A DNA stretch of 64,000 nt from Balneolaceae bacterium (GTDB lineage Bacteria; Bacteroidota; Rhodothermia; Balneolales; Balneolaceae), in contig JAXHMM010000003.1 of NCBI GenBank assembly GCA_034521445.1, forward strand, positions 496,001 through 560,000, written 5' to 3'. The stretch's first letter is position 1. Each line of letters starts with the position of its first letter. A program made the position numbers and the translations under genes. The notes beneath the pieces are model-generated. The model did no database searches. It was given only the letters and a program-made list of their open reading frames with translations, and was not told the origin of the DNA. This document shows, in pieces, positions 16,581 through 58,465 of the stretch.

Positions 16581-16735
16581 ATATGGGTACCGAAAGTTGT
16601 GATTTTTTCACAAAAGCTAAATGGCCCATGGGCCATGTGCGCTTCCAGAAGCCGATTGGCGTTTCGGGATTTGTGATAAAATTCACAAATATCAGGTACG
16701 AAAAAATCACCCTGTGAGGGGTATACATGGTGCTG
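16581..16735. repeat. Element E1: paired dyads, 74-bp spacing
   Basis: The first dyad is 16597-16613 (TTGTGATTTTTTCACAA). The second is 16669-16690, with core TGTGA-TAAAAT-TCACA. Centre to centre is 74.5 bp. Flanks carry ggtac on both sides in inverted sense and C/T-rich or G-rich outer arms. It lies in the 324-bp gap 16481-16804 between DUF4175 and batB, two genes in the same direction. No reading frame in the gap looks coding. Confidence 0.85.
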
Positions 16736-16804
16736 CATGAACAGCCTGTTCTGCTGTTTCCCTGAACTTTCTGTGCGGGCCGAAAATCAACGGCTGGTTT
16801 GGCA

Positions 16805-19800
16805 TCAGTTGTCTTCGATTTCTTTCAATAGCTCGAAGTAGCGCTGGATGAGCTGCTGGTAGTCCTGCTTGAAGCGGGTGCGCTGGGGGTCGTTGAGCAG
16901 GCTGCGGATGCGGTTCTGCAGCTCTTCCAGGGTGACGTCGGGGGGCGTGGCGCGCGGGGCATCTTTAGCGGTGCTTGCCTCGCGCTCTTCCTTTTCTCCG
17001 CGCTCCTGCACCGCCTGCTGCGCGCTGAGCATGCGTGAGAGGATGTTCTGCTGGCGCTGGGCCACGTTGGCGTCGGTCTGTCCCCCGCGCATGTCGTTGA
17101 TGCTCTGCTCCATCTGCTCGGACATGCGCTCCATCTCGCTGAGCACCTCGTCGCCGGGTTCCAGCACGCCGCTCTGCTGGAGCTGCTGAAGCTGCTCGCG
17201 TATCTGCCGCTGCTGGCGGGCAAGCTGGTTGAGGCGCTCCATCTGGTCCTGCGAGAGGCGGTCGCCGGCCATGTCGTTGATCATCTGCTGGAGCTGGTCG
17301 TTGAGCTGCTGCTGGTTCTGGCTCATGTTCTGCATCTGCTGCATGAACTGCTGCATGCTCATGCTGGCGCTCTGGCTTTGGCTGTTGCTGATCTGGTCCA
17401 GCAGCTGCGCCAGGGAGGAGGCCAGGTCGTTGATGCCGCCGAGGGACTCCCGCAGGGCGAAGGAGGCGTTGGACTTGTTGCGTTCGGCCAGGTAGGTGAC
17501 GGCGTTCTCGAGCTGCCGCTCCACCTCCAGCTTTTTCTTGTTGATGGCGTTGGAGAAGCCGGGGATCTGCGTGGAGAGGCTGAAGAGGGAGTCGGATAGC
17601 TGGATAAAGTGCTGGCGTATGGAGCGCTGGGTGCGCGCCTGCTCCACGAAGGCCTGGCTGCGGTTGGCCAGGCGGTCGGTCTCCCGGGCCACCTCCTCCT
17701 GGTTGAGCGAAAGGTCGATGAGAGAGAAGAGTATGTACTGCCAGGCCGGACATGTTGATCCGCCGGCCCTGCTGGCTGATCTGCTGCCGTGCGCTGCGCA
17801 TGGCGTCGGCCGTCTGCTGCATGCCCTGGCTGATCTGCTGTTGCTGCTGCTGAATTTGCTGCTGGCCTTCGCCGGGGGACTGCTGGCCTCCCTGCTGCTG
17901 TCCGGCCTGCTGCGCCCTGCTGCCATCCTGCTGGCCGCTGGCCGCCGGCCTGCGCCTGCTGTCGGCAGCGGCAGTCCCGGTGCCGTCCGTGGCGTGCTAT
18001 CGGCCTGCATGCGCGCATCTGCTCCAGGTTCTCCTGCACCTGCGCGGCCAGGGAGTCCATGCGGGCGCCCTGCCCCTTGCTGAAGCTGTTCCACCTGCTC
18101 GCGCGCCTTCTCGGGAGCGTCCCGGTTGAGGGAGTCCACCTTCCCGCGCAGCCGCTCCATATCCTGCCTGGACAGCCTCCTGGCGCTGCACCTCTTCCCG
18201 GCCGGTTTGGTCATCGCTGGCTGAGTTCCTGCTCCTGTTTGGCCAGCTCTTCCATGGTATTGGCCAGCTTGTCCAGGTTGCTGTTGAGCTTGAGGCTGCG
18301 GAAAAGCTCCAGGGTGCGCTTGAGGCGCTCGCTGTAGAGCTCCTCGTTGAATTCGTAGTTCTCCAGCGCCTCACGCAGGCGGTCCTGGCTCATGCTGTCC
18401 ATGGCCTTCCGAAGCTCTTCCATGGCCTGCCGGAAGGCGGGGTCGTCAATCTCCTGCATCAGCCGTTGCAGCTCCCGGTAGCTCTCGCGGGTCTCCGGTG
18501 AGACGGCGTCGCTCTGTTCCATCTGCCGGCGAAGGTCCTGGAATTTCCGGTTGAGCTCTTCTACCTGCTGCTGCATCTCCTCGCGCCGCTTCTGCATCTG
18601 GTCCAGGCTCTGTCGCTGCTCCCAGTTGGTCTGGGGATTCTCGCGGAGCTGCTGCCGGAAGCGGTCGAACTCCTCCTGCATCTGTTCGTAATTCTCGTTG
18701 ATTTTCTCGAGGGACTCCTGAACGTCGGACTCCCCGCTCGGGAGCTCAGCTCCTCCATCGATTCGGTCACCGACGGAAAGCGGATGGTGACCGTGCGGGA
18801 GAGGCCCTCCTTGGGACCGTTGTCGGGGTCGTTGTCCAGCACGCGGATGCGGAAGGTGAGGCGGTCGCGGGGACCCGGCCCGAGGCGGGTGAGGTCCCAT
18901 TCCAGGCTGCCGCTCTGTTGTTCGGGGCTCCAGTCCAGCGGCACGCTTCCGCTGGAGGGGCTGTCCGTGAAGGCCTTCTGCAGCTCCCAGTCCAGCGTGG
19001 CCGCCTGCAGCCCGAAATCGTCGCCCACCTCCCAGGCTACCTCCAGCGGCTGCGGCGTGCGCATCTCGGGATCGCCTTCAGGGGGCGGTGATCTCCGCCC
19101 AGGGGAAGCGGTCGCTGACGGGCTCCACGGTGAAGGAGAACCGGTTCTCGTTGGTCAGGCCGTTGGCGTCGGTGATGGCAAAGGAGAGGCTGTCGGGTCC
19201 GGCCAGGGTGAAGGCGTGCTGGAAGGAGGTGACCTCCTCCGGCTGCTGCTTCTCCGTTGCAGCATTTCCTGAGGCCATGAGAGCGATGGAGGTGCCCGGC
19301 TTGTTGGTGGCGCCCCGATGCGCAGCTCGGAGCCGTGCATGGCCTCGATGCGTGAGAAGGGGTAGCGGTAGCCGGTGGAATCCAGGCCTGTGTAGGTCGG
19401 GGGATCGACGGTTACGGAAAGGGACTCGAAGCGGGGGCGGAGCTGTACGTCCACGCGGTAGAGGGGGCTGCGGAAGCCGTCCATTTCCACGTAGTAGCTG
19501 CCGTCGGTCTGCAGCGTGACGCCCTCGAAGCGCAGGGTGTCGGAGGCGGCCGCAGGCCGTGCGCGGTCCGAGCTGGCGGAGCCCGTCCCGGCGGCCGGCG
19601 GGACGGCTGCGGTACTGCTGCTCCAGCGTCGGTCTTGAAGGCCAGGTTCACCCGCCGGTGGCACTCCCCGTGGAAAACCACCCGCGGTTCCAGGCGTGCG
19701 CCCTGTTCCAGGGTATGGTCGCCCGGGCAGCACAGTATAACTCGTAGGGATTGGGCTGCTCGTAGCTCTTCCAGAAATGCAGGGCGCGTCCGGCGGCGCT

Positions 19801-20357
19801 GCCGAAGACCAGCACGGCGGCCAGCAGGAGGAGCAGCGAACTTCCGGCGCCCAGGCCGGCGCGGCGCAGCAGGCGCTGGTTGGAGGAGGCCTTCAGGTAG
19901 GCTTCCAGCTCCGAGCGCACGCTGATTCGCGGTCCAGATCCTTCCAGGTTGGCGCGGATGGCGGCCTCCCGCAGGCGTTGGGAGGCGTCGGCGCGGTCAG
20001 GTGGAGCCGCAGGTCGCAGGGCGTGGCGCAGTACCGGGCAGGTTGCGGCGAGCTTGCAGAAGTCGAGGTAGAAGGAGCGGAAGCCGGTTACGCTTGCCGC
20101 CGCCGCATGAGCAGCCAGGCGACGTGCCCGCTGCGGTGACCGCGAACAGGGCGACGAGGGCGGTCTTGGCCCAGGCAGGCAGCCAGAGCTCGCTCTCCAG
20201 CAGGCTCAGCAGGGCGAATCCCGCCACCGGCGCCAGCAGGGTGAACAGGAGGGAGGCGGCCAGGTATTTCCGGCGCAGGCGTTCCCAGGCCCCGTGGAGC
20301 ATCTTTTGCAGCTCCTCCAGACCGCCGCTGTCGCTATGTGGGTTCTGCCTGGCTCAC
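16805..20357 (-). CDS. DUF4175-like large membrane protein with Gln-rich coiled coils (many frameshifts)
   Basis: Reading on the minus strand from about 20357 (GTG): LEELQKMLHGAWERLRRKYL, two hydrophobic segments (AASLLFTLLAPVAGFALLSL; TALVALFAVTAAG), then a third (GSSLLLLLAAVLVFGSAAG) near 19830. Beta-rich domains follow (RVDVQLRPRFESLSVTVDPP; LTFRIRVLDNDPDNGP), then several hundred residues of Glu/Gln/Arg coiled coil and a Met/Gln-rich stretch. The end is YQQLIQRYFELLKEIEDN at 16805. About 1,170 aa with at least seven breaks. The architecture and the BatB neighbour match the DUF4175 family of FCB bacteria. Function unknown; an envelope role is likely. Confidence 0.62.
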
Positions 20358-20504
20358 AATGGATGCATTTCCTTAACGATGCTGTTAAGGCTAACGGCCC
20401 CATGTCTCTCGTGCGCGCGACCCTGTAATAAGATATGGAAATGGGACGATGCGCCAACCGGCGTACCGTCCCATCGCTGCAATGTGGGATCCCGAAGGTT
20501 TACC

Positions 20505-20537
20505 TCCCGAACACTCACCTCCCGAACACTCACCTTC
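20505..20537. repeat. Short tandem repeat upstream of DUF4175
   Basis: Two copies of a 16-bp unit (cctcccgaacactcac) lie side by side in the 189-bp gap between the SLBB gene end and the DUF4175 start. No promoter was recognised in this gap. One of several short tandem repeats in the window. Confidence 0.6.
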
Positions 20538-20546
20538 CGCTTGCGG

Positions 20547-23204
20547 TCACCTGGAAATCTGGATGATGGTGGTCACGATCAGCGAGGCCGTGGAGACGAT
20601 GGCCGAGTAGAGACTCACGCGCTCTTGCGGCGTCAGGCGCAGGGTCTCCGGTTTTTCGGGCACCACGATGGTGGCACCGGGACGCACCTCGGGGTAGTTG
20701 GTGAAGATGCCCAAGGGCCTTTTGGTCTGGGACACCTCCCCGTTGGCGTAGATCACGTAGCCCTTTTTGTCGCGAGCCAGCTCGGTAAAGCCGCCGGCCT
20801 GGGAGATATAGTCCTTAAAATTGCTTCGCTCGTCGTAACGCACGGTGGTGGGGTGCTGCACGCCGCGCTGGATGGTGACGCGGTCTGCAGGGTGCTGCGG
20901 GATGAACGAGGAGTCTGCCCGGTTCCAGGTAGAGGTCGTATCGGGAACGCGGGATTATCGCACCACCTCCTGCAGGTCGATACCCACCTGCACTTTCTGT
21001 GAGAAGGACACGCCCTGGCCGCCCATTTGGCCATCTCCGTTACCGTCTCCCTGGTTCCCGGCCACGGCCGCCAGACCGGTTCCCTGGGCCTGCCGCGCCA
21101 TCTGGGCCTCCTGCTGGGTCTGATTCCTTTGACGGAATAGGGAGGCGCCTTCGATATAGGCCTCGGGGGTCAGTCCACCGGCCCGCTCGATCAAGTCGGA
21201 AATACGTTCGTTCTTGTCCGAGAGGGTGTATTTACCTGGGAAGCGGACCTGTCCCACGACTCTCACCTCCTGTTGCTCTTCGTAGTTGGGCAGCTCGCGC
21301 ACATAGACCTGGTCGTAGGGCATCAGCTCAAACTGGGCTTCCTCGCCGGTCAATCCAAGGTCGGGATCCACCTCAAAGGTGAATACCTCGGCGATGCTGG
21401 TGCTGACCTCCTCCTGGTTCAGGTCGCGTATGCGCCGGGAGACCTCAATCTGATAGGGTGCGGCCGATTCGCGGAAGCCACCGGACCGGAAGATGGCATC
21501 CCCTAGGGTCATGCCGTTCACGAAGCGCATGGTATCGCGGCTCCATTACGGGTCCATTGATACGGACGGTGTGCGTCTTCACGCATCTCGAAGATGTTGT
21601 TGATGTAGATCACGTCCCGCTCCTGAAGCTCGATGTCGTTGGCGGAGGGGTTCTGCATCACCGCCTGCAGGTCGAAGGAGATAGCCTCGGTATCGAAATT
21701 ATCCTGTTCCCGGTAGATGACGCCGCGGTTCATAAAGGCGTCTTCCTTCAACCCGTCGGCCCGTTCGATAAGGGAGTGGAGGGTGGTTCCCTCGGAGAGC
21801 TCGTATTTGCCGGGACGGTAGACCGCGCCCTTGATCTCCACCATATTGGCGAATCGGTCCAGGATCTTACCCGCGTGCACCGAGTCGCCCGATTCCAGGT
21901 CGAACATTGCCGAAGTTGGCCTGTCCCACGTCTGCTACGGTCCGCTCGCGGGGGGTATTGCCGATGACGGTCACCCGGTCGGTGTAGGCCTGATCCGTGA
22001 AATCGCCGGCAAATTTTATAAGATCGGCTATCGTTTTCGCCCTCTTCCACCTCGTAGAGGCCGGGGCGTTTCACCTGCCCTGAGATGGCCACGCGGTTGG
22101 TGTAGGGCTTGATCTGGATCATGTCCTGACTGCGTAGCAGGATGTCACCGGAACGGTCGCCGTTGATCAGAATATCGTACAGGTCGAAGGTGGCGGCCAC
22201 CGAATCGCCGCGGATAATGTTGATGTGGCGAAAGCTCCCGTTGACGTTGGGTCCGGCGGAGGCGTAGAGCGCATTGAAGACCGTGGCCAGGGAGGGGAGG
22301 GTGTAGGTGCCGGGCATGGTGGACTCGCCCATGACGGTCACGTTAATGCTGCGGATCTGTCCCAGCGATACCTGCATGTAGGTATCCTTCTGATTTTCGT
22401 TGTCAGGGCTGAGTCCGCTATAGATGGTGCCCAGGCGTTCGTAAAGGCGCTGCCGGGCCTCCTCGATGGTCAGGCCGCTCAGCTGAACCGGTCCCAGGTT
22501 GTCGATCAGTACCATCCAGTCGGGTGAGACCTCCAGCTGATAGGTCATCTGCGCGGCGCCCCAGATATCTACGATGAGCTGGTCGCCGGTGGCGAGCACG
22601 TAGTCTTTCGGGTGTGGGAATGTTAAGTTCGGCCTGGAACGCGTTGCCCGCCCTGGCCCTGACCCTGGCCTTGCATGCCTCCCGTTTGCCCCTGGTCCAT
22701 CTGGAAGCGTCGCACCTTGAACAGTTCATAGCCGTAGATACGGTCCCGCAGTTTCTGGTTGGCAAGGTTGGTCGAGTCTTGACGCGACTGATATTTGATC
22801 TGCTCAATGGTGCGGTAGAGGCGCAGGGAATCGATGCCTGTAGCGCCCCCGAATACGGTGTCAAATACGTTGTTTGCGGTTTGCAGGTCCAACCCGGAAC
22901 GTTGCCGTCCCGTGGTCTGGTCTCCCGCCTGTTGCCCACCAAGTTCACCGCTCTGGGCGTCCTGCAGCCGGCGGCGTAGTTCAGCGGCTTGCGACTGTGG
23001 CAGACCCCGCTGGACGGCCAGCTGTACCATCTGGTCGATGGAGAGCCCCCGAGCCTGGGCGCTTTCGTAAATGGCCATAATGCGCTGGTCACTCAGATTG
23101 CCTACATCGGCGGTCTGAAAGTCGATGTTGCCGATGTTCTGCGCGGTCGCCGCGGAGGCCAGGCATAGCAGTGCGATTACGAAGAAACTCTTTATCAGTC
23201 GCAT
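20547..23204 (-). CDS. Wza-like polysaccharide export protein with multiple SLBB domains (frameshifted)
   Basis: The start at 23204 carries a signal peptide (MRLIKSFFVIALLCLASAAT). A Gln/Gly-rich region follows, then the export domain (YVLATGDQLIVDIWGAAQ) and successive SLBB units: VMGESTMPGTYTLPSLATVF, VAISGQVKRPGLYEVEEG, VEIKGAVYRPGKYELSEGTT, RVVGQVRFPGKYTLSDKNER. The C-terminal hydrophobic segment is AIVSTASLIVTTIIQI. About 885 codons span the locus, with breaks near 22610, 22020, 21890-21910, 21540, 20955 and 20870. It should form or gate the outer-membrane exit of a polysaccharide. The cassette at 1-10 kb is the likely client, though it is 10 kb away on the other strand. Confidence 0.78.
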
Positions 23205-23311
23205 TAAGATTCCCTTGTTTTATGAGCGGTTGGAGTCCAGTGAAAAACTAAGCCACCAAATTAAGTAATTTTGAGGTAAAAAGAATATGGGGATTTGGCC
23301 TTCCTGCTTGC

Positions 23312-24193
23312 CTAAAGCTCGTTCAGGTGCAGTTTTTGATCTACCTCGTATTTGTTATTGTTTTTGCGGACGGTGATCAACTCCTCGGCGGCGTCGTGCT
23401 CCAGGTAGAGGTGCCAGCCGCCGGCCGCGGCGTTTTCCAGAAAGGCCTCTTTCTCGCCGAGGGTCTGCACGGGATGCATGTCGTAGCCCATGACCCAGGG
23501 CAGGGGCACGTGTACGTGGGTGGGGATGAGGTCAGCCATGAAGACCAGGGTGGTGCCGCCTCCCTCGATCTTGGGCAGTTGCTGGGAGATGGTGTGGCCG
23601 TGCACCGGGATGGCGGAGAGGCCGGGCTCGTACTCATGGTTTTCCTCCACCAGGTTCGAGCCGGCCGGAATTTTTCAGGGACGCCGGTTTTCCTCGAAGA
23701 AGCTGGCGGTTTCTCGCTTGTTGGGATTGTTGGCCGTTTCCCAGTGCTTGGCGGTGACGTGAAATTGTGCCGCGGGGAAGATGACTTCGGCGGTATTCTC
23801 CCCGCCCTCGACCCATTGGGTCGTGCCCCCGCAGTGGTCGAAGTGGAGGTGCGTGAAAATGACGTCGGTGATGTCGCCCAGCCCGAAACCGTGGGCTTTC
23901 AGAGAGCCTTCCAGGGTGCTGTGATTGTGATCCACCTCGTAGATCTTCTCCATCTTCTCGCCGAACTTGGTGCCGATGCCGGTGTCCACCAGGTAACGGC
24001 GGCCGGTGTTCTTGGATTCGATCAGCAGGCAGCGCATGGCCATGGGGATGCGGTTCTTCTCGTCCACCTCGATCTGCCGTGACCAGAGGGTTTTGGGCAC
24101 CACCCCGAACATGGCGCCGCCGTCCAGCCGGAAGCGCCCCGTTTCGATGGTGTAGAGGTGGAAGGGGCCGATTTCGGTGTGGGAGAGGCTCAT
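23312..24193 (-). CDS. Metallo-beta-lactamase-fold hydrolase (one frameshift)
   Basis: MSLSHTEIGPFHLYTIETGR begins at 24193. The zinc-binding motif THLHFDHCGG is at about 23855, a further His in AQFHVTAKHWE, and the late His residues in PVHGHTISQQL and HVHVPLP. About 294 aa, normal for the family. One break near 23665-23680 separates ENRRP from SLKNSGRLEPGG. It is a soluble, probably dinuclear Zn hydrolase; substrate unknown. A sigma70-like promoter lies about 105-135 bp upstream. Its upstream gap also contains element E2. Confidence 0.78.
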
Positions 24194-24301
24194 GATGTGT
24201 TGCGCTAATCGGTTAGTTTTTTCAAATCGTTCAAATCGGAAGGGCGGCCGGTTGCTCTTTTATTGATTCGAAGTTGTTCCTTGCCAATTGCGTACTGCGC
24301 T

Positions 24302-24330
24302 ATTATACACTATCTGAGCTCTATTGTCTA
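24302..24330 (-). promoter_or_regulatory. Promoter for the MBL hydrolase gene
   Basis: On the minus strand: TAGACA (24330-24325), 17-bp spacer, TATAAT (24307-24302). The same arrangement, including the spacer core CTCAGAT and the AGC after the -10 box, occurs upstream of the MerR gene at 35011-35039. The two regions are otherwise unrelated, so the match is informative. Start of transcription would be near 24295, about 100 bp before the ATG. Confidence 0.5.
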
Positions 24331-24371
24331 ACGGTTGGATGGCTAGCACGTGGGGAGGGGGTACTCCGCAA

Positions 24372-24520
24372 ATGGGGCCGATAATGCAGGTTGATATTTG
24401 TGATTTTCACAAATGACTTTTGACGGAAGGGTGCGTGGAGCATGTATACCCACTTGGGTCCGCGAACATTTGTGAAAAAATCACAAATATGGAGGGCCCT
24501 ATTTGGTCACCATGGGAGCC
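24372..24520. repeat. Element E2: paired dyads, 73-bp spacing
   Basis: The first dyad is 24396-24414 (ATTTGTGATTTTCACAAAT, loop two bases shorter than in the other copies). The second is 24468-24488, with core TTTGTGA-AAAAA-TCACAAA. Centres are 73 bp apart. The outer arms carry ggggcc on the left and ggagggccc on the right. It lies in the 578-bp divergent gap 24194-24771 between the MBL gene and the membrane transferase. The rest of the gap (24521-24771) is C-rich and holds nothing I recognise. Confidence 0.85.
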
Positions 24521-24771
24521 CCCAATGAACCTCATGCCCCATGCCCCCGAATGGCCGCTCAGCCGCATGGTCCCACACGTCCCCACATGCCCCCATGCCG
24601 CTCATGCCCGCCTGACATTTCTCCGGCGTTGTTGAACAGTTGTGCTAAACCGGTCAAACATTCGATTCATCTTTTATAATTGGTGTCAAATTGGTTCCTT
24701 TGTATTGCGAGTTTCCACTGGCGTTCTACGTGCCCAATACCTCCAGGAGGCCATCACCGTGATTATGCAAG

Positions 24772-26294: not shown

Positions 26295-26296
26295 GA

Positions 26297-27824: not shown

Positions 27825-27851
27825 CACGGTAGAACAAGAAGCAGATGCGAG

Positions 27852-28465
27852 CTATTGAAAGGGTTTGTAATGCGACTCGTCGGCCAGATCAAGAAGCTGG
27901 CGGTCGCCCTCGCTGTCTCCGTAGGCGATGATATGGCAGGCGTCCAGATCGGGTATGAGCGACCGTAAGCGGGCCGCTTTTACCTCCCCGGAACAGTTCC
28001 GGCCCTCCAGTCCGCCGGTAATACGGCGGCTGTCCCGGCGGATCGAAGAGCAGATTACATGGTGAAAGGAGTGGCTAACGCCCCACGGTTTGACGTACAG
28101 ATCGGGCGAGGCGCTAATCAGCACGAGGGTATGGCCGGCGGCGCGATGATCGGCTATGCGATCGAGGGCGGCCGGTCTCAGCAGGCCGGGCAGGACTTCG
28201 TTGAGAAAGAATTGGCTTGCCTGATCAACCGTGCGAGTCGACTTACCCCTGAGAAATGTATCCAGTAATTGATTTTTGGCTTTTTCGTTGCTAACTATGC
28301 CCAGGCCGTAGGCCAGCAACCAGGGCATGCACCTGGTCATCCCGGCGAAAAACTCAACGGGTGAGCTTTGAGATGCCACAGCCAGGGCAGGAGGGTATCG
28401 CCGCTGGTTATGGTACCGTCAAAATCGAAGACGGCGAGGACCTCTTTGGTATCGTTTACGGGCAT
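27852..28465 (-). CDS. HAD-IB family phosphatase (one frameshift)
   Basis: The minus-strand start MPVNDTKEVLAVFDFDGT at 28465 contains the nucleophile motif DFDGT. A break near 28345-28375 joins it to VEFFAGMTRCMPWLLAYGLG and on to LISASPDLYVKPWG (motif II) and YGDSEGDRQLLDLAD (motif III). About 205 aa, the size of PSP/SerB-like or Rv3807c-substitute phosphatases. UbiA-type decaprenyl-phosphate phosphoribosyltransferases are often fused to or beside such HAD domains, and here the UbiA gene starts 25 bp away on the opposite strand. The likely job is removal of the 5-phosphate from polyprenyl-phosphoryl-5-phosphoribose (inference). Confidence 0.75.
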
Positions 28466-35039: not shown

Positions 35040-35164
35040 ACCTGTTGCGCGGGTTGGGGCGAGGAGGTGGTGGTTGTGCCTGAGAGGTGGTACATGTGCC
35101 GGGGTGGCGGTTGTGCTGGTAAGGCGGTGGTTGTGGTTGTGCTGGGATGAGGGCGCCCCTCAAA

Positions 35165-35340
35165 GGCCTCAAATTCTATGGTCTATATTTGTGATTTTTT
35201 CTCAAATCCCAATTGCCCTGTATGGCACAGGAACTCCCAGGGGCCCATCACCTCCTGCGGAATTGTGATTTTTTCACAAATATCAGGGTCCGAATTTTGG
35301 GCTTTTGGAAGGGACTGGGGGAGTGGGGGACTAGGGGATA
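35165..35340. repeat. Element E3: paired dyads with G-quadruplex-type tail
   Basis: The first dyad is 35187-35207 (one mismatch, CTCAAAT). The second is 35261-35281, with TTGTGATTTTTTCACAA as core. Centres are 74 bp apart. Left arm (caaaggcctcaaattc) and right arm (gaattttgggcttttgg) are inverted relatives. At 35311-35336 four G runs (GGG, GGGGG, GGGGG, GGGG) with loops of 3-4 bases follow. It lies in the 543-bp gap 34934-35476 between MerR and a sulfotransferase, same direction. Confidence 0.85.
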
Positions 35341-38637: not shown

Positions 38638-38895
38638 ATGAAATCATCTCATATGCCTGCCAGTATCACCATCCGTGAAATACCCGATGAGGTACACCGG
38701 CGCTTGAAAGAGCGTGCGGAGCGCCATCATCGAAGCCTCAACAGCGAGATTATCGTCTCCCTGAAGCGGAGTGTAATGAGCCATGAAAGGGATCCGGATC
38801 AGATTCTTGCACGGGCGGATCAACTCAGGAAGAGGATTAAGGGAAGCCTTACCATGGAAGAGATTCAGGATGCCATCGAGGAGGGACGGCCGTGA
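38638..38895 (+). CDS. Antitoxin of a VapBC-like pair (ribbon-helix-helix, FitA-like)
   Basis: Intact, 85 aa from ATG 38638. ASITIREIPDEVHRRLKERA and ERHHRSLNSEIIVSLKRSVM form an Arc-type ribbon-helix-helix as in FitA/StbC antitoxins. The acidic C-terminus (SLTMEEIQDAIEEGRP) would bind the toxin. It overlaps the toxin start by 4 bp (GTGA), so translation is coupled. These operons normally autoregulate. Base composition is less GC-rich than the flanking genes. Confidence 0.85.
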   Translation: MKSSHMPASITIREIPDEVHRRLKERAERHHRSLNSEIIVSLKRSVMSHERDPDQILARADQLRKRIKGSLTMEEIQDAIEEGRP

Positions 38896-39293
38896 TTGTG
38901 GCTGACACCAATGTTCTGGCGGCTGTCTGGATGCCCAGTGAAGAGGAAAGTGTGGTCCGGAAACTGCTTCGTACGGATTCTGAATGGGTTGCACCACGGT
39001 TGTGGCGGTCTGAGTTCAGAAACATGCTGAGTCTCTATTACCGGAAGCAGCTTCTGGACTTTGATACCGCTCTGCAAATCATGCAGCAGGCGGAGGAATT
39101 AATGGATCAGCGGGAGTACGAAGTGCCCTCGGTGCGCGTGATGGGAAAGGTGTCGGATTCCTCCTGTTCCGCTTACGATTGCGAATTCGTCGCCCTGGCC
39201 GAAGACCTCGACATAACGCTGATCACGTTCGACCGCAAGATCCTGAAAGAATTTCCGGGAATTGCACGCACTCCGGAATCCCATCTGGCCTAG
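38892..39293 (+). CDS. PIN-domain ribonuclease toxin, VapC-like
   Basis: Intact, 133 aa from GTG 38892. Acidic PIN residues are visible: MIVADTNVLAAVW (first Asp), WRSEFRNMLSLY (Glu), SAYDCEFVALAEDLD (Asp, Glu) and LITFDRKILKEFPG (last Asp). PIN toxins of this type cut tRNA or rRNA. With the antitoxin it forms a complete TA module inserted between the methyltransferase gene and a diverged 3'-end copy plus its parent gene. Confidence 0.88.
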   Translation: MIVADTNVLAAVWMPSEEESVVRKLLRTDSEWVAPRLWRSEFRNMLSLYYRKQLLDFDTALQIMQQAEELMDQREYEVPSVRVMGKVSDSSCSAYDCEFVALAEDLDITLITFDRKILKEFPGIARTPESHLA

Positions 39294-41301: not shown

Positions 41302-41467
41302 GATTTCAGTTGATATGCCGGGTATGTTTCTCGGAATAATAGGCATTATCGGTGTACGAACGGGAGGGGAGATGTAGGGTGCGGATGTAGGGACATACCC
41401 GTCAGGGGTGGGTTGGGGAACGCATTGGAGCAGGGATGTGGCTGCTACGGGGGGGTGTTCATGCGGC

Positions 41468-41620
41468 CATATTTTGGTGGTCAGAATTTGTGATAATTTC
41501 ACAAATAGGGACAGCGCGCATGGGCTATACAACCCGCAGGGGCCGTTGGTAGCTGATTACTTTGTGAAAAATTCACAAATATTGACCATGCTTTTCAGGC
41601 TCCTGGGGGGCATGTGCTAC
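41468..41620. repeat. Element E4: paired dyads, 74-bp spacing
   Basis: The first dyad is 41486-41506, with core TTTGTGA-TAATT-TCACAAA. The second is 41561-41579 (TTTGTGAAAAATTCACAAA). Centres are 74 bp apart. ggtggtcag on the left and ttgaccat on the right are inverted relatives. It sits in the 424-bp gap 41302-41725 between OsmC and SafE, which run in the same direction. No gene was seen in the gap. Confidence 0.85.
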
Positions 41621-46103: not shown

Positions 46104-46347
46104 GACCCTCCCCCAAAGCGGTGAATTTTGCACCTCGAAATTTGTGATTTTTTCACAGATGCAGAGGGGGGCACGTTGTCTTGCTGCATGGAGAAGCAAT
46201 CAGGTGAAATCGTTTTTGTGATTTTTTCACAAATTCGGGGGATAGTTTTTTGGGCCCTGTGAGGGCCCTGGGAGGGTATTGAGGGGTATTGAAAGGGTTT
46301 CGGGAGAGGATCAGGAGGGGGTCGGGGAGGATATTATTGGGGGGGGT
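46104..46347. repeat. Element E5: paired dyads within a 244-bp repeat shared with E6
   Basis: Dyads at 46141-46159 (one mismatch, CACAGA) and 46215-46233 (TTTGTGATTTTTTCACAAA); centres 74 bp apart. The whole block, including the G-rich right tail and ggccctgggaggg, is closely matched by 51241-51483. Only scattered substitutions and short indels differ. It lies between the oxidase operon end and the remnant at 46480, where genes converge. No gene in the block. Confidence 0.88.
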
Positions 46348-46936: not shown

Positions 46937-46993
46937 GACAGCTTGATGGGTACGCGGAGTTCCGAATTCTTTCGTCGAGAGCGGAGCGACAGG

Positions 46994-48859: not shown

Positions 48860-48885
48860 GGAAAGGGTCCTGTATGGGTCAGAGA

Positions 48886-51048: not shown

Positions 51049-51141
51049 CGCAGGAGAAAATTAATTTACTGAACGTGATTATTCAGTGAATAGTGAATAA
51101 GGATTTACTGAATAAAGAGTATTATGTCTTAATACTAGATT

Positions 51142-51170
51142 ATAGTACCATCATTTCTGTCTATTGTCAA
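51142..51170 (-). promoter_or_regulatory. Possible promoter of the synthetase operon
   Basis: Minus strand: TTGACA (51170-51165), 17 bp, TACTAT (51147-51142). A TATAAT also occurs at 51144-51139, at a longer 20-bp spacing. It lies about 95-120 bp before the ATG. An AT-rich stretch with three near-repeats of attcagtgaataa (51078-51115) follows. Confidence 0.4.
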
Positions 51171-51240
51171 CGTGTACTTCCTGTCGGAGGGAGGCCAGGC
51201 TGGAGGAGCCTGGCTGAAGATATCTGGCTGGTGACCTGTG

Positions 51241-51483
51241 GACCCTCCCCAAAAGCGGTGTATTTTGCACCTCCAAATTTGTGATTTTTTCACAGATGTA
51301 GAGAAGGGTACCTTGTCTTGCTGCATGGAGAAGCAATCAGGCGAAATCGTTTTTGTGATTTTTTCGCAAATTCGGGGGATAGTTTTTTGGCCCTGGGAGG
51401 GCCCTGTGAGGGTGATGAGGGGTATTGAAAGGGTGTCGGGAGAGCATCAGGAGGATGTTGGAGAGGATAATAGTAGGGGGGGG
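51241..51483. repeat. Element E6: paired dyads, long repeat partner of E5
   Basis: Dyads at 51278-51296 (CACAGA variant) and 51352-51370 (CGCAAA variant); centres 74 bp apart. The block copies 46104-46347 in the same orientation. The two copies bracket the lipoprotein, the 621-aa gene and the synthetase. It lies in the 579-bp divergent gap 51049-51627, which otherwise holds the two promoters listed. Confidence 0.88.
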
Positions 51484-51593
51484 CTTTTTTGTTTAAAGGG
51501 TTGGAACTGTACTAAAGTCTATTTCTATAAAAGAGCTGATATGTTTCTCAATAGCTAATCTCATCCCTCTCTTTACCCTCCTCCATTTTTAAA

Positions 51594-51623
51594 TTGCAAA
51601 TGTTCGCATTTATGCTAACTTTG
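51594..51623 (+). promoter_or_regulatory. Bacteroidota-type promoter of the higBA remnant
   Basis: TTG (51594-51596), 19 bp, TAACTTTG (51616-51623): the -33/-7 pattern (TTG/TTTG and TAnnTTTG) of Bacteroidota housekeeping promoters. Transcription would start at about the ATG at 51628, giving a leaderless message. Confidence 0.45.
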
Positions 51624-51627
51624 ATGA

Positions 51628-51833
51628 ATGCGCGTTATCATATTCTACTGAACCCAGTCCGGGAATTGTCCTGTGGAGGATTTCTTGAAAACCCTTCCGG
51701 ACAAACAGTCAAAAAAGATTGCCTGGACTATGCGAGTGGTTCGAGAATTGGATCAGGTTCCAACACAGTACTTAAAGAAATCGAGACGGCCGAACAACGA
51801 AAACTGGATTATTACCGGAGGAAAGGACAATGA
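51628..51833 (+). pseudogene. HigB/RelE-family toxin, broken
   Basis: The frame from ATG 51628 reads MRVIIFY, a TGA where this family has an amino acid, then CPVEDFLKTLPDKQSKKIAW and ELDQVPTQYLKK. The C-terminal motif ETAEQRKLDYYRRKG follows directly in another frame. The central 35-40 residues that carry the catalytic strands of HigB-type toxins (the F-R-L-L-G-F-type segment) are missing. Its final codons overlap the ATG of the antitoxin by 4 bp, as in intact pairs. An internal deletion plus a stop makes real inactivation likely. Confidence 0.65.
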
Positions 51834-52111
51834 AAAAAGACGACCTGGAAATATTTATTGACCAAAAGAAGGCAGAAAGCGCGGAGTTTGCGGAGGACTT
51901 TGAGGAAGGATACCTCAATTTTAAAATCGGGGTGATTCTGCGTCAGGCCCGAGAGGATATTGGGATCACGCAAGCCGACGTGGCGGAAAAACTGAATACC
52001 ACCAAATCGGTTATATCCCGAATGGAAAACCATGCGGAGGATATCAAGCTTTCCACTCTTACCAAGTATGCCAAAGCCCTTGGTAAGAAAGTGACCCTCG
52101 ATATACAGTAG
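51830..52111 (+). CDS. HigA-like XRE antitoxin (intact)
   Basis: Intact, 93 aa. A charged N-terminal helix (EIFIDQKKAESAEFAEDFEE) precedes the HTH ITQADVAEKLNTTKSVISRM and STLTKYAKALGKKVTLDI. This is the usual order for antitoxins encoded after HigB/RelE toxins. Because its toxin gene is broken, it now stands as an orphan regulator of its own promoter, or has other targets. Confidence 0.8.
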   Translation: MKKDDLEIFIDQKKAESAEFAEDFEEGYLNFKIGVILRQAREDIGITQADVAEKLNTTKSVISRMENHAEDIKLSTLTKYAKALGKKVTLDIQ

Positions 52112-52129
52112 TTCAAAACATTACAATCG

Positions 52130-52290
52130 CATGGACCTCTAGCAGCCTAAGAAATGGGAGTTGCAGTTACCGGTTCGCTTGGCACTTTGGTTACTGCGAA
52201 AAGGAAAGGACATATTCAGACAATTCAACCGATCGTTGGGAAGACACAAGAAACGAGCCTTCTGAATAGGGAACCGGACTTGGCTGTGGT
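52130..52290 (+). pseudogene. PIN-like (DUF3368) fragment
   Basis: The frame reads EMGVAVTGSLGTLVTAKRKG then HIQTIQPIVGKTQ, preceded in phase by LAA and a stop. The G-x-x-V-T-G-T-L-G-x-L-x-x-A-K-x-x-G-x-I pattern is the C-terminal signature of DUF3368 PIN-like toxins. The rest of the protein is missing on both sides. It adds a third TA-type relic to this window. The remaining gap to 52373 holds nothing else recognised. Confidence 0.45.
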
Positions 52291-52373
52291 GGTCCACGCA
52301 GCCCTCGTGCATGGTATGGTAGTGACGTAGCACCACGTCCATGCATTCCCTTCATCTCTTCGGCAAGCGGATC

Positions 52374-54984
52374 TTAATCATCCAGGTTCATACCGCGCGC
52401 GGAGTTGCCGACCACCAGCAGGCTGCTGGCTGCCATGGCCAGGGCGGCAAAGAGGGGATTGATGAGGCCTGCCACGGCCAGGGGAATGCAGACAGCGTTG
52501 TAGAGAAAGGCCCAGGCCAGGTTCTGGCGGATTCGGCGGCGCGTGAGCCGGATGGCCCGGAAAACCGAAAAGATGCGGTCCAGGCGGGGTTCGGGAATGA
52601 CCACCTGGGCCGATTCGGCCGCCACCGCGGTAAGGTCCCCGAAGGCGATGCCGTAGTCGGCTTCCGCCAGGGCAGGGGCGTCGTTGCTGCCGTCGCCGAT
52701 CATGGCCACGGTGCCGAATTTCTTCAGTTTACGCAGGATTTCGGTTTTTGACTCCGGACGCGCTCCGCTGAAGAGGAAATCAGGTTGCAGGGCGTCGGCC
52801 AACCGGCGGGAAGCGCGCTCGCTGTCGCCGGTGATGACAGCCACTTTCTTGCCGGCAGCCTGGAGGCGTGGGCCACGGCCTCGGGCGCATCCTCCCGCAT
52901 GCGGTCGCCCACGACCAGCACGGCGCGGGCGGCCGGTTCCGGGTCATCCCGCTGATCTTCATACGCCACCGCAACCGGCACCTGTCCGGCACCCCGGGCG
53001 TCCTCCACCGCATGCTGCTGCGAGGTACTCAGGGCAAAACCCAGCTCCTGTATCCATTCGGGCTGGCCCACATGCACCAGCTTACCGTCCACCGTGCCTG
53101 AGATGCCGGTGGATGTGGTTCGCAGGTCGGTCACGGGGAGGTTTGTGGGGTTTGTGGCGCCCGTGACCGCGGCGGGCAGGGCAGCAGCCACAGCCCGTCC
53201 TACCGGATGCGTGGAGTAGCGCTCCACGGCGGCGGCGAGGGTCAGGGCGCGGGGGTCATCGCCGGCGTCCAGCAGCTCCATCCTGCCGCCCGTGAGGGTG
53301 CCCGTCTTGTCGAAGGCCACAATGTCGGCCTCGCCCTCCTCCTCAAAGAGCGCACCGGTCTTGAAGATGATGTTACGGCGCAGCGCCTCGCGCATGCCCG
53401 AGGCCAGGGCCAGCGGCGTGGCCAGTCCCAGCGCGCAGGGGCAGGAGACGATGAGCACGGCCAGGGCCGACAGGAGGGAGGCGGAGGCCGGAGCACCTCC
53501 GAGCCAGCCGACCAGAAAGGTGACGGCGCCCAGCAGCAGCACGCCGGGCACAAACCAGGAGGCGATGCGGTCGGCCAGTCGCTGCCGGCCCGGGCGACTG
53601 CTCTGGATGTCCCACATCATGCGCAGGAGGGCGTCCAGGGTGCTGCGTACGGTCTCGCCGGTGTCGATTTCGAGGCGGTTCTGGGTGAGCACGGTCCCGC
53701 TGGAAACCCTGTCGCCCTCCCTTTTGGTGACGGGGAGGGATTCGCCGGTGATGAGCGCCTCGTCGACCACGCCCTCGCCTTCGATCACGGTGCCATCCAC
53801 CGGAATGCGCTCCCCGGCCAGCACCACCACGGCGGGATGCACTTCCCGAGGGTGCGTAGCCCGGAGCCGTGCTCGCATGCTGTCGCTCGCGAGCCTTAGC
53901 TCGTGCCGTTTCGCCGCACACGGGCGTGGTCGGCGCCCCTTTGGGTGAGCTCGTCGAGAATGCTGTTGCGGCTGCGGCGGATGCGCCGCTCGTAACGGTT
54001 TCCCAGGGTGACCACCAGCACGACCGCCATGGTGACGTCGAAGTAGACCTCCCCGCCGCCCGACAGCAGCACGCCGGTGCTGTAGAACCATGCGCTGCAG
54101 GCCGCAATGCTTACAAGCAGGTCCATATTGGGCTGGCCCACCGAGAGGGAGACCCAGGCGCCGCGCAGAATGGGGAAGCCGGTGTAGGCCAGCACGAAGG
54201 TGGTCATTACAAAGATGTTGGCGATGATGAAGCGGCTCTCCATGGGACGCAGGCTGACGATGCCCTCGCCGCCCAGGTAGACAGGGTAGAGGAAGAGAGC
54301 GTAGAGGAGGAGTCCCATGATGCCGAAGAAGCCTCCTATGGCCAGGCGCGCGGACTGGTCGTCGGGCTCCGCGGCAGCTGCGTCTGTTGTGTCCGCGGGC
54401 GGCTGGTCGTGGTCGGCAGGCGGATGTTCCCTTGCCGGCTGTTGTTGCCCCGTTGGAGGCTGGTGCTCCGCTGGACGTTGTCCCGCCGCATATTGTTGCC
54501 CCGCCGGCCGTTGGCGCCCCGCCGGCCGGGCCCGGTAGCCCATGCGGCTGAGGGCTGAGGCCACCTCGGTGGGATCGGTTTGCCGCGGGTCGTAGCGCAC
54601 GCGGGCCATCTCCGAGGCGTAGCTGGCCTCGCAGGAGCGAACGCCGGTCTGCCGCATGGCGAGGGCGCCCAGGAAGGATTCGCAGGTGGCGCAATGCATG
54701 CCCTCTACGTGCAGGAAGAGGGTTTCGGAGGTGTGTTCTGCGGCGGTACCGGCGGCAGTTCCGGCGGCGGTGCCAGCTACGTTTCCAGCTGGAGTGCCTG
54801 TTTCCCGGCGTGCGGCCGCCTCGTCGCGAACCTGGCGTGCCTCCCCCTCGTCCAGATCCTGCAGCAGCCGATGGACCTGCAGGCAGCCCTGGCAGCAGAA
54901 GGCACCCTCTGTATCCGATGCCGTAACAGGCGGGTCGGGGAGGGGGAGCTCACAAAGGGTGCATCGTTCGTGGGTTACGGGCAT
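52374..54984 (-). CDS. Copper-translocating P-type ATPase, CcoI/FixI-like (two frameshifts)
   Basis: ATG at 54984 (MPVTHERCTLCELPLPDPPV). Order: CxxC and AFCCQGCLQVH metal-binding N-region as in CcoI; an HMA domain (VEGMHCATCESFL); a long Gln/Pro/Ala-rich linker; eight membrane segments with SCPCALGLATPLALASGMRE; the phosphorylation site FDKTGTLTGGRM; and the hinge MIGDGSNDAPALAEADYGI. Breaks near 53895-53910 and 52860. About 870 aa. It exports Cu(I) across the inner membrane for oxidase assembly or detoxification. Divergent from the small Cys protein and TonB receptor. Confidence 0.85.
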
Positions 54985-55104
54985 GGGCGCCGCCGGGGGT
55001 TGATTGCTGCGGATAACCTGTAAACATAAGGGGATTACAGGAATATCGCGGGGCCAATTGCCGTTCGGGCGGCCGTTGGATTGCGCGGCGATTCGGTACG
55101 GGTT

Positions 55105-55265
55105 ACCCCATGCCTCATATCGGCCCAAAAACGTTGGTCTGTATTTGTGATTTTTTCACAAATACAGATTGTTGAAATCACTGTCAGACAATCTGTAAGG
55201 CTTTTGGCAAAATACTTTTTGTGAAAAATTCACAATTATGAGGGGTGGTTTTTTGGCGGTTTTGA
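55105..55265. repeat. Element E7: paired dyads, direct-repeat partner of E8
   Basis: Dyads at 55144-55162 (TTTGTGATTTTTTCACAAA) and 55218-55236 (last arm CACAATT); centres 74 bp apart. From accccatgcctcatat on the left to atgaggggtggtttttt on the right it matches 58309-58465 nearly base for base. It lies in the 381-bp divergent gap 54985-55365 between the copper ATPase and the Cys protein. Confidence 0.9.
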
Positions 55266-55365
55266 GGGGTGGTGTCAGGTGTCTCCTTACATAAGGGAAT
55301 AATGTGAAAATCACGGCGTCCGCGAAGGCCTGTCAGTTTTTTATTACCGGGGGAACTTCCCTACA

Positions 55366-55758
55366 TTGGGAACTGTGTTGCGTAAGGTCATCTCCATACT
55401 ACTTGTGGCATGCCTCCTGGGCGCGCTGGCGCAGTTCACACTGCCTTATCTCTGGTACTACGCCAACTACGAATATATCGTGACCGAGCTCTGCGTGAAT
55501 CGTTTCAATCCCGACGTGGAGTGTGAGGGCTACTGTCAGCTCCACGATAAGGTGCGCAAGCAGCACAATGACCACAGCGAGGACGCGCCTCAGGCTCCAG
55601 CGCCACAAACCGACAAGCGCCTCCAGCTTTTCTACAGCGACGAAGAGCAGCCTTCAGCTGACCGCGAGCGCAAGGAATCCCGTTTCAGATCCCACCTGGA
55701 ACGCATGCAGACCCTCTGGTACGGCGAGCCCGTTTTCCCTCCTCCCAAGGCGGCCTGA
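55366..55758 (+). CDS. Small membrane-anchored Cys protein upstream of the TonB receptor
   Basis: Intact, about 125-130 aa; TTG 55366 or GTG 55375 can start it. A signal or anchor helix (VISILLVACLLGALAQFTLP) precedes YEYIVTELCVNRFNPDVECE and GYCQLHDKV. The C-V-N-x(5-6)-C-x-G-x-C spacing recurs in small Bacteroidota proteins encoded beside metal-related TonB receptors. No formal family name comes to mind. The polar tail has no further Cys. Position between a copper ATPase and a TonB receptor suggests metal handling. This is inference. Confidence 0.6.
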   Translation: MGTVLRKVISILLVACLLGALAQFTLPYLWYYANYEYIVTELCVNRFNPDVECEGYCQLHDKVRKQHNDHSEDAPQAPAPQTDKRLQLFYSDEEQPSADRERKESRFRSHLERMQTLWYGEPVFPPPKAA

Positions 55759-55923
55759 TACGATCGAAGTTCCCTTTCCGGTGATCGGTTCATCCGGCCA
55801 AACCTTATCGATATAACCCATCGGCGGGCTCATTTCGTGCGCCCCGTACGTCGCCGCATTTGCGTGCCTTATTGCCAGGCAGCACCCGGCGGCGTGGTCC
55901 GCCTTTCATAACTGCATGAATTT

Positions 55924-58281
55924 ATGTACAAATCTACCTTCTCGATTCTATTTGTCCTTGCAATCATACTGACGGCCCTTGCGCCTCAAGCCCTCCATGC
56001 CCAGGAGCGTGCCGCCCTCCGCGGCGTCATTACCGGCGGCGCCGAAGGGCAGGAGCGCCGCGCGCTGGTCGGCGCCAACGTGCTGGTGCTCGGCACCAAT
56101 CTGGGCGCCTCCACAGATGTGGATGGACGCTTCTCCCTCAGCTCGGTGCCACCGGGCACTCACGAGGTGCGTTTTACCTATATCGGTTATCGAGAGCGGG
56201 TGGAGACGGTCACCCTGCAACCCGGCCAGACCCTGGAGATGCAGATCAACCTGGAGCCCTCATCCTTCATGATGGAGGGCATCCGCGTGACCGCTCTCAG
56301 CCCCAACCTGGAAGTGGACGCCACCATGGAGCAGTCGGATGTGCGCGAGGCGAATCCCCGCGATTCCGGCGAACTTCTGCGCAGCGTGAGCGGGGTGGGA
56401 GCCGTGCGGCGCGGCCCTGTGGGCCTCGATCCGGTGGTGCGCGGGCTGCGCGAGACCGAGGTGGGCACCTACCTGGACGGCACGCGTATTTTTCCCGGGG
56501 GACCTGCACGGATGGACTCGCCCCTGAGTCACCTCGATCCCTCCACCATTTCGTCTATAGAGGTAGTCAAGGGTCCCTACGCCCTCACCTGGGGCGCCGG
56601 TAACATGAGCGCCATCCGCGTACAGACGCAGCAGCTGCGCACCCTGAACCGATCCTTCGGTGGCAACGTCAGCAGTGGCTACGACTCCAATTTCAACACC
56701 TTTGAAGAATCTTTTTCGGTGCAGGGAAGGCTGGATGCGGGGGGATCCGGACGCATGAATCCCGGTGATGCCGGCGATTTCGGCTATTTGCTGAGCGGCG
56801 CCTGGCGCACGGGCAGCGACTACACGACCGGCGACGGCGTGAGCGTGCCGGCTGACTACCTCTCCCGTGAGATCCGTGGCAAGGCGGGTTACGGCACCGG
56901 GGAGAACTCCTGGCTGACCCTCTCGGCCGGCTACCAGAATCAGGAGAACATCGACTACCCCGGGCGGTTGCTGGATGCTGACTATTTTGACGCCTACAAC
57001 CTGGCGGCCGACTGGGAGCTGCGTCCAGAGGAGGGCCTGGTTTCTGCCGTGAACGCCAAGCTCTACCTGAACCAGGTGGATCATGGCATGGACAACGACG
57101 ATAAACCGACCGCCCAGCCTGCACCGGGACGCATGCCGCCCTTCGGCCTGGATGTGGAGGTGGATGCCCAGGCGAAGGTGGTTGGAGGGCGCCTGGCGGC
57201 GGAATTGGATCCTGCCGGTGACTGGCACCTGGAGGCGGGCGGTGATTTCTATAGCGCCTATCGCGAGGCCACCCGGTACATTAGCCGCCGCGACAACGGC
57301 ATGCTGATGTTCACCGATTTCATGTGGCCACAGGCTACCATTAACGACGTGGGTATTTTTACGCGGGCGACACACACCTTCAGCGACCGGCTGAGCGCCA
57401 CGGGTACGGTGCGTCTTGACCTGGTGTCGGCTGATGCCGACACGGTGAGCACTTTTTTTCGCGACAATGTATCGGGCGATCTTGCCTCCTCGGAGACGAG
57501 CATGAGCGCCTCAGCCACGCTGAACTACCTGTTGGGCGACCACTGGTCGTTGGGATTGGGTGCCGGCAGCGTGACACGTACGGCCGACGCCACCGAGCGC
57601 TATTCCGACCGCATTCCTGCCAGCAAGGCACAAACCAGCGCGGAATTTGTAGGCAATCCCGAACTGGATCCCGAGCGCAGCCTGCAGGCCGATCTATGGC
57701 TGGAGGGAGAGTTCGCTGCGTGGACGCTCTCGCTTAACGCTTTTGTGCGCCGCATGGACGATTACATCACCCTGGAGCCTACAGAGCTGCCCAAGCGCCT
57801 CCCGCTGAGTCCCTCCACCGTCTATCGCTACGTGAACGGCTCGGCACAATTTCACGGCTTCGATCTGAGTACGGTGTACCGCCTGGCGCCCGAATGGCGC
57901 CTGAAGACGGGCGTGCACTACCTGTGGGGCGAGGATACCGAATTGGATGAGCCAGCCCTTGGCGTGGCGCCTCCCGGCGCGGATCTGGGCCTGCGTTACG
58001 AGGGGGATGAACGTCCTCTCTTTGTGGAAGGGACGTTGCACCTGGTCGGCGAGCAGGACCGTGTGGCGGTCACCCGCGGCGAAACGTCCACGGATGGTTA
58101 CATGACCGCCGATCTGCAGGCAGGCTACACCTTCTGGGAGCGGGTCTCCGTGCAGGCGGGCGTGAAGAATGTGCTGGACGAGAACTACGTAAATCATCTG
58201 AACGCCAAGAATCCTTTCACCGGCATGCAGATTCCGGAGCCGGGAAGGGTATTCTTTTTAGACGTCAATGTGCAGTTCTAG
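55924..58281 (+). CDS. TonB-dependent outer-membrane receptor (intact)
   Basis: Intact, 785 aa. A signal peptide (SILFVLAIILTALAPQALHA), then a carboxypeptidase-regulatory-like domain (ALVGANVLVLGTNLGASTDV; GRFSLSSVPPGTHEV). The plug (GELLRSVSGVGAVRRGPVGL, VVRGLRETEVGTYLDGTRIF, ISSIEVVKGPYALTWG) and a 22-strand barrel follow, ending FFLDVNVQF. The plug resembles OprC/NosA-type receptors, consistent with copper uptake for the ba3 oxidase, but this cannot be proven by eye. No riboswitch was recognised in the 165 bp upstream. Confidence 0.85.
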   Translation: MYKSTFSILFVLAIILTALAPQALHAQERAALRGVITGGAEGQERRALVGANVLVLGTNLGASTDVDGRFSLSSVPPGTHEVRFTYIGYRERVETVTLQPGQTLEMQINLEPSSFMMEGIRVTALSPNLEVDATMEQSDVREANPRDSGELLRSVSGVGAVRRGPVGLDPVVRGLRETEVGTYLDGTRIFPGGPARMDSPLSHLDPSTISSIEVVKGPYALTWGAGNMSAIRVQTQQLRTLNRSFGGNVSSGYDSNFNTFEESFSVQGRLDAGGSGRMNPGDAGDFGYLLSGAWRTGSDYTTGDGVSVPADYLSREIRGKAGYGTGENSWLTLSAGYQNQENIDYPGRLLDADYFDAYNLAADWELRPEEGLVSAVNAKLYLNQVDHGMDNDDKPTAQPAPGRMPPFGLDVEVDAQAKVVGGRLAAELDPAGDWHLEAGGDFYSAYREATRYISRRDNGMLMFTDFMWPQATINDVGIFTRATHTFSDRLSATGTVRLDLVSADADTVSTFFRDNVSGDLASSETSMSASATLNYLLGDHWSLGLGAGSVTRTADATERYSDRIPASKAQTSAEFVGNPELDPERSLQADLWLEGEFAAWTLSLNAFVRRMDDYITLEPTELPKRLPLSPSTVYRYVNGSAQFHGFDLSTVYRLAPEWRLKTGVHYLWGEDTELDEPALGVAPPGADLGLRYEGDERPLFVEGTLHLVGEQDRVAVTRGETSTDGYMTADLQAGYTFWERVSVQAGVKNVLDENYVNHLNAKNPFTGMQIPEPGRVFFLDVNVQF

Positions 58282-58308
58282 GGTGTCTGGCTGGGGTCGC
58301 CGCTGGTC

Positions 58309-58465
58309 ACCCCATGCCTCATATCGGCCCAAAAACGTTGGTCTGGATTTGTGATTTTTTCACAAATACAGATTGTTGAAATCACTCTGAGGCAATCTGG
58401 AAGGCTTTTGGCAAAATGCTTTTTGTGAAAAATTCACAAATATGAGGGGTGGTTTTTGGGCCGTG
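58309..58465. repeat. Element E8: paired dyads, direct-repeat partner of E7
   Basis: Dyads at 58348-58366 (TTTGTGATTTTTTCACAAA) and 58422-58440 (TTTGTGAAAAATTCACAAA); centres 74 bp apart, both perfect. It copies 55105-55265 in the same orientation. It lies in the 453-bp gap 58282-58734 between the receptor and the GbsR-like gene. Confidence 0.9.

Follow-up and report, generated by a model that had tools for sequence, protein, structure and literature searches.

Intergenic regions of a Balneolaceae genome (3.2 Mb in 18 contigs, 97.8% complete, 3.84% contamination) carry a dispersed repeat of ~165 bp with two-fold symmetry, in which two 17-bp palindromes (dyads) sit ~seven helical turns apart on the same DNA face. 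Tentatively, and with slightly less than even confidence, we interpret the element as a large two-fold symmetric, double-stranded site for a candidate sequence-specific (dimeric) DNA-binding protein that would serve the chromosome. This docking-site reading draws on palindrome stems that are better conserved than the interior, on the symmetry, on the fixed spacing of ~seven turns and on the lack of covariation. Our analysis centers on a 64,000-nucleotide stretch of the genome (the window, C3:496001-560000), which holds eight of the copies; genome-wide there are 26 full copies plus a single half copy, every one of which matches a sequence model of the element on both strands, although most of the 26 full copies also served to build that model.

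Architecture of the element

The initial annotation had reported eight dyad pairs in the window and none in its first 16 kb, and all of this was confirmed. The elements are as follows, each drawn to extend 38 bp outward from its two dyads:

16559..16726, unstranded: E1 element, dyads 16597-16613 and 16671-16688; orthologue C16:18892
24360..24524, unstranded: E2 element, dyads 24398-24412 and 24470-24486; orthologue C16:10991, with a left loop of 5 nt
35151..35317, unstranded: E3 element, dyads 35189-35205 (one mismatch) and 35263-35279
41450..41616, unstranded: E4 element, dyads 41488-41504 and 41562-41578
46104..46270, unstranded: E5 element, dyads 46142-46158 (one mismatch) and 46216-46232
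51241..51407, unstranded: E6 element, dyads 51279-51295 and 51353-51369 (one mismatch each)
55107..55273, unstranded: E7 element, dyads 55145-55161 and 55219-55235
58311..58477, unstranded: E8 element, dyads 58349-58365 and 58423-58439; direct copy of E7

The dyad consensus, ATTTGTGA-W5-TCACAAAT, is operator-like and nearly invariant. Counted genome-wide, the exact pattern TTGTGA-N(3-6)-TCACAA occurs 39 times, compared with 0 occurrences of a control in which the pattern was read backwards; allowing up to two mismatches at a 5-nt loop gives 72 dyads against 20 for the control. By our own tally, 38 of the 39 exact dyads fall within elements (the exception is C6:232191), so that single dyads are not as common as pairs. 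The claim of a conserved distance also holds: measured center to center in the 370 kb fetched around the dyad matches, 22 of 25 pairs are spaced at exactly 74 bp, two at 73 bp and one at 74.5 bp, while every other distance below 300 bp (80, 90.5, 103, 154, 164.5, 177, 219, 244.5 and 293) is seen once, a distribution that is not flat. The sequence-only model used to recognize further copies was trained on 21 copies, and 150 of 226 first-look candidates were scored with it in the source genome. A lone dyad with one mismatch lies at C5:380481-380497, 80 bp to the left of the left dyad of the element at C5:380561, and is possibly the remnant of a further element.

The spacings of 73 bp in E2 and 74.5 bp in E1 may be sequencing errors, since the counterparts of both elements on contig C16 are spaced at 74 bp with 5-nt loops and since this part of the window carries frameshifts that are absent from C16. 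Much of C16, together with the first 20 kb of C12, aligns to C3 at ~86% over long stretches, which suggests that these are probably contigs of a sibling species within the same bin. Between window positions 16800 and 23200 genes are split across frames, while their homologues on C16 are intact (887 and 1205 aa); the assembly probably contains indel errors there, and the affected range probably extends from 7000 to 34500. At C3:635856, where the remaining 73-bp spacing occurs, the left dyad is degenerate.

The unit had initially been described by its two dyads, which stand, but it really reaches ~38 bp beyond each of them into conserved outer arms. Profiles of aligned half-sites (52 in one set, 36 from 18 distinct copies in another) give a common order toward the dyad: a G-rich and then a C-rich step, a W step, GGGCC, an AAATTT-like block, CG, CC/CT and ATAT. 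Arms of distinct copies are 0.44-0.45 identical, compared with 0.257 for shuffled arms. Identity between the two arms within an element is 0.44, no higher than that between arms taken from different elements (0.445 overall, 0.449 left to left, 0.436 right to right; permutation p = 0.62), so each arm represents a shared consensus independently of its partner. The DNA between the dyads had been called unrelated from copy to copy, which is too absolute: the interiors are weakly related, with 21 of 153 pairs of distinct copies above the 99.9% level of shuffles, and the interior of E3 is 82% like that of C3:562656 when inverted. Short tandem runs such as AAGTCGGG are found just outside E1, C3:378113 and C5:393797.

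Conservation of the stems and absence of covariation

Three copies have orthologues in the same gaps of the sibling contigs C16 and C12, and the differences between them are unevenly distributed: 1/71 in stems, 0/29 in loops, 19/169 in interiors, 25/211 in arms and 112/1464 in flanks, which are partly coding (stem versus interior, p = 0.010). A matching pattern was obtained from five pairs of neighboring copies within the genome, one copy being used twice, with 1/120 differences in stems, 3/50 in loops and 27/285 in interiors (stem versus interior, p = 0.0009). Taken together, related copies have changed at 2 of 191 stem positions and at 46 of 454 interior positions. We read the better-kept stems as a sign of selection at fixed places, which a host protein would explain better than a selfish relic would.

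Covariation does not exceed the null for any helix, the best value among 18 distinct copies being 2.17 against 2.29-2.59 in 10 column shuffles; the nearly invariant dyads are uninformative on covariation in either direction. The arm identities given above likewise show no hairpin or terminal-inverted-repeat coupling. Because base-pair covariation and arm-to-arm coupling are both absent, we read the element as double-stranded DNA and not as a folded RNA or a long hairpin. Of the two suggestions made at the outset, a dispersed element with two sites that a protein reads on double-stranded DNA is supported by the stems, symmetry, spacing and lack of covariation, whereas a mobile cruciform is not supported, given the arm identities and the lack of a covarying helix.

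A candidate docking site serving the chromosome

The protein, the wrapping and the role that we infer would combine as follows. Two protein dimers, or one tetramer, would occupy the dyad pair, and looping by one putative protein across both dyads is possible; bending or wrapping may be aided by the degenerate outer arms, in which A/T and G/C blocks alternate, so that ~165 bp would be folded into one complex. Such a complex would serve the chromosome, in organization or in insulation between operons, and not one promoter, given that convergent genes, too, have copies between them. By our own open reading frame (ORF) picks, which left aside ORFs below 100 aa, the copies occupy all kinds of gap, and five (C5:336137, C5:347659, C5:393797, C6:356687 and E5) are in convergent ones. 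Some copies may have multiplied together with inserted toxin-antitoxin cassettes, and a second role as the border of such cassettes is plausible. If proteins that bridge DNA do dock here, the element would represent a new layout for a bacterial chromosome site, with two operators locked seven turns apart in patterned arms. The sites of MatP (matS), SlmA and Noc are a few dozen short fixed palindromes clustered in part of the chromosome; the present elements are likewise a few dozen fixed palindromes that are partly clustered, but those are single palindromes, whereas each element locks a pair together at 74 bp and adds conserved arms.

Several observations weigh against this interpretation. 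No binding protein was identified, although MatP, SlmA and Noc were not searched for. In the arms, the A/T profile has a best period of 12 bp instead of 10.5, and this period is not shared by the interior; none of 2000 column shuffles reproduced the 12-bp period, a weak control because neighboring columns are correlated. DNA wrapping by the arms is thereby weakly supported, and exact 10.5-bp phasing was rejected. The orthologue comparison covers three loci with gapped positions omitted, its stem versus flank difference is not significant (p = 0.058), and the pair C3:635856/C12:7610 carries indels in the degenerate left dyad. The comparison of neighboring copies is biased, the copies having been detected through their dyads. 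The distribution is odd for a general chromosome-organizing site, since 19 of the 26 copies sit in two ~57-kb stretches beside or around islands of low G+C content (GC): C3:512-568k holds 10 copies and C5:336-394k holds 9 and the half copy, leaving 7 outside both clusters, 3 of them on sibling contigs. Finally, the cassette borders described below weigh against a pure chromosome-organizer view.

Next to an element cluster, a low-GC island (0.38-0.46) spanning window positions 1-8000 and C3:466000-496000 is free of any element. A link to the replication origin or terminus was considered and rejected (dnaA is at C5:511k, and there is no clear skew flip at the clusters in the stretches fetched).

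Elements at the borders of toxin-antitoxin modules

A possible, though rather unlikely, alternative has the element act as an attachment (border) site for an integron-like system that captures cassettes at double-stranded, two-palindrome sites. A circular cassette with one element would recombine with a resident element and so come to lie between direct copies. All six adjacent near-identical pairs are indeed direct repeats (five by alignment, E338 and the half copy 339 by eye, since a seeming 100% alignment of the latter two compares overlapping windows and was discounted). E7 and E8 are 92% identical over 169 columns, the homology stopping near the element ends, and E5 and E6 are 90% identical over 253 columns; E5/E6 and E336/E338 share right-side homology of 75-114 bp.

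On C5 the order is beta-galactosidase, E378, AbiEii with DUF6577, E380, MazE with Fic, E382, alpha-L-fucosidase. GC in 500-bp bins falls from 0.65-0.69 to 0.38-0.47 and returns to 0.61-0.69, with the steps at the elements. Further low-GC modules on C5 are also bordered: one holds a weak AbiEii match and its DUF7343 partner, one a helix-turn-helix (HTH) antitoxin-like gene, and another an HTH/M78 gene, a PIN domain that narrowly misses its cut-off, an HTH protein and AbiEii. E336/E338/half-339 and E342/E347 flank AbiEii (one of them below cut-off) as well as HTH antitoxin-like genes, and in all, both AbiEii matches above cut-off and one of the two weaker ones are bracketed by elements. The fucosidase occurs in 14 relatives; among the eleven loci examined (L100-L110), a gene that appears by eye to encode a transporter directly adjoins it in two. 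Here the transporter-like gene lies beyond the beta-galactosidase, two genes from the fucosidase. Those two short relatives' loci contain no beta-galactosidase match, so they show the ancestral gene order only in part. In the window, a copper-ATPase-like gene (by eye) and g56 are separated by 6.6 kb carrying E5 and E6, while in relatives G006 and G024 the copper-ATPase-like gene adjoins the g56 counterpart (27-29% identity). Two sets of toxin-antitoxin-like genes neighbor the window elements:

38653..39293, plus strand: FitA-like antitoxin and PIN-domain genes (PF22513 and PF01850, above cut-off), neighbors between E3 and E4
51830..52111, plus strand: HTH_3 antitoxin-like gene (PF01381), neighbor to the right of E6

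The second of these lies in 500-bp bins with a GC of 0.43-0.52, compared with 0.64 and 0.68 on either side.

Other observations count against this alternative. The DNA bracketed by E7/E8 and by E5/E6 has native-like GC, and the module beside E6 lacks an element at its far end. Between E1 and its orthologue C16:18892 the left arm differs, and to the right of the left dyad the two agree apart from scattered changes, in keeping with a border; the right arms of E7 and E8, however, diverge within the arm and not at the dyad. Exchange exactly at the dyads was therefore rejected, being consistent with E1 and not with E7/E8. No cassette presence or absence was seen between sibling contigs at the three loci compared, and better conservation of the stems in place is unexpected for a purely selfish site. 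Relative to C3:511469-511489, ~1.1 kb from E1, C16:20057-25810 is a 5.75-kb insertion with a 20-bp junction overlap (L027/L028).

A dedicated recombinase for the elements was not found in searches with PF00589, PF00239 and PF01797 (DDE transposases were not surveyed). The PF00589 search returned only XerD (above its cut-off), a XerC-like protein that falls slightly short of the XerC cut-off (325 versus 335 bits) and an integron integrase; neither serine recombinases (PF00239) nor Y1 (RAYT/REP-type) transposases (PF01797) gave a match in the genome. The integrase (TIGR02249, 434 bits against a cut-off of 265) is on C6, far from the elements. It belongs to a chromosomal integron at C6:704000-716000 (L069), recognized through its repeats and integrase, with small genes that look toxin-antitoxin-like by eye; the genome is rich in toxin-antitoxin genes away from the elements also. 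In the C6 array, eight attC-like sites (114-126 bp) share an orientation and the form TAACG...GTTA[GT], a form found 8 times on one strand of the 16-kb array, 2 times on the other and 7 times in 370 kb of other fetched sequence. It fits 0 of the 26 elements, so the elements do not resemble the attC-like sites of the genome's own integron. The general boxes RYYYAAC...GTTRRRY are also absent from all 26, in a strict scan that does not discriminate, as it finds none in the C6 array either.

Like attC arrays, the elements are directly repeated sites separating toxin-antitoxin cassettes, and like attC sites, which are variable in sequence around conserved core boxes, they combine a constant core with variable surroundings; they differ in lacking both the form of the resident array and covariation. 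A dif site is 28 bp long with an 11-6-11 layout. The XerC/XerD-dependent dif/pdif modules of Acinetobacter are discrete, discussed together with toxin-antitoxin genes and bordered by symmetric recombination sites, in which they resemble the modules here; the present element, at 165 bp with two 17-bp palindromes, has a layout other than that of dif. The stronger proposition, that a second, non-integron cassette system with a double-stranded two-palindrome attachment site gathers toxin-antitoxin and Abi modules in tandem arrays alongside the conventional integron, we consider doubtful. If the elements do act as cassette borders, they would offer a route for the build-up of defense and toxin-antitoxin genes without attC sites.

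Mobile repeats, operators and structured RNA

That the element is a non-autonomous mobile element resembling a miniature inverted-repeat transposable element (MITE), with subterminal palindromes and a transposase that is gone or unrecognized, appears improbable. A clustered unit of ~165 bp in 26 copies, with fairly clean ends in E7/E8, would suit it, and REP/REPIN, ERIC and MITE families are dispersed, intergenic, symmetric repeats of 100-200 bp, as are the elements. Terminal inverted repeats, however, should make the two arms of a copy more alike than arms of different copies, which they are not, and dead copies should decay evenly, whereas here the stems outlast arms and interiors. No empty site was seen, the sibling contigs keeping the three compared copies in place. 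The elements further depart from these families in the absence of inverted-repeat coupling and of a Y1 transposase (other transposase families were not surveyed), and REPIN/IS200 was rejected.

Paired operators for an ordinary looping transcription factor at each regulated promoter are a very unlikely explanation. The 74-bp spacing of ~seven turns and the position of many copies upstream of a gene would be expected of such operators, and the palindromes resemble those of dimeric repressors. Operators of the CRP, Rex and lac type have TTGTGA/TCACAA half-sites with even spacers; the elements share the half-sites, but have an odd 5-nt spacer and are paired at 74 bp. The copies in convergent gaps, outer arms conserved far past two operators and the lack of an evident common pathway among the identified neighbors all speak against this explanation. 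As to a known regulator of the phylum, the LexA box of Balneolaeota is a direct repeat, TTACACATATTTTWTACATA, as printed in PMC7739468, and the elements do not match it.

A structured RNA or single-stranded DNA (terminator, riboswitch or attC-like hairpin) is extremely unlikely: the whole element folds more stably than its shuffled versions (z averages -3.05 across the 26 copies), but because the consensus is symmetric, and its parts fold at about the shuffle level (z = -0.29 for the interior, -0.34 for the left arm and -0.16 for the right arm), without covariation above the null and with no Rfam match at any element searched. Rfam gave 0 matches in the window and four in L017, L021 and L023, none of which is located at an element. 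They include riboswitches at L017:17501-17571 (fluoride) and L021:6732-6825 (SAM-I/IV).

Distribution beyond the source genome

The family comprises at least 21 genera, and the genomes compared include no other member of the same genus. The exact pair was found in only 1 of 58 family genomes, the source genome itself, and not in the 57 relatives. With the sequence model and strict filters, 30 candidates being scored per genome, 1 of 92 family genomes (again the source, with 30 of its 54 strand matches) gave a match and the 91 others gave none. A de novo search for repeated dyad pairs in 20 stretches of relatives returned none at 74 bp, compared with 13 at 74.0 in the window; one of the stretches, L055, is masked with N and uninformative. 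In wider collections scanned for exact letters, which diverged relatives of the site could escape, spacings of 59-89 bp gave 8 genome stretches at 63, 69, 81, 82, 84 and 85 bp and one viral pair at 85 bp, with none at 74 in either collection. BLASTN of one element against plasmids and of another against phages gave no match, and the literature searched contained nothing that we recognized as such an element. On these sequence comparisons, the site is apparently restricted to its lineage. Four contigs of Nocardioides albus (L038, L042, L043 and L044) carry paired TTGTGA-N5-TCACAA dyads at 81-84 bp with similar text between them, which are a different element.

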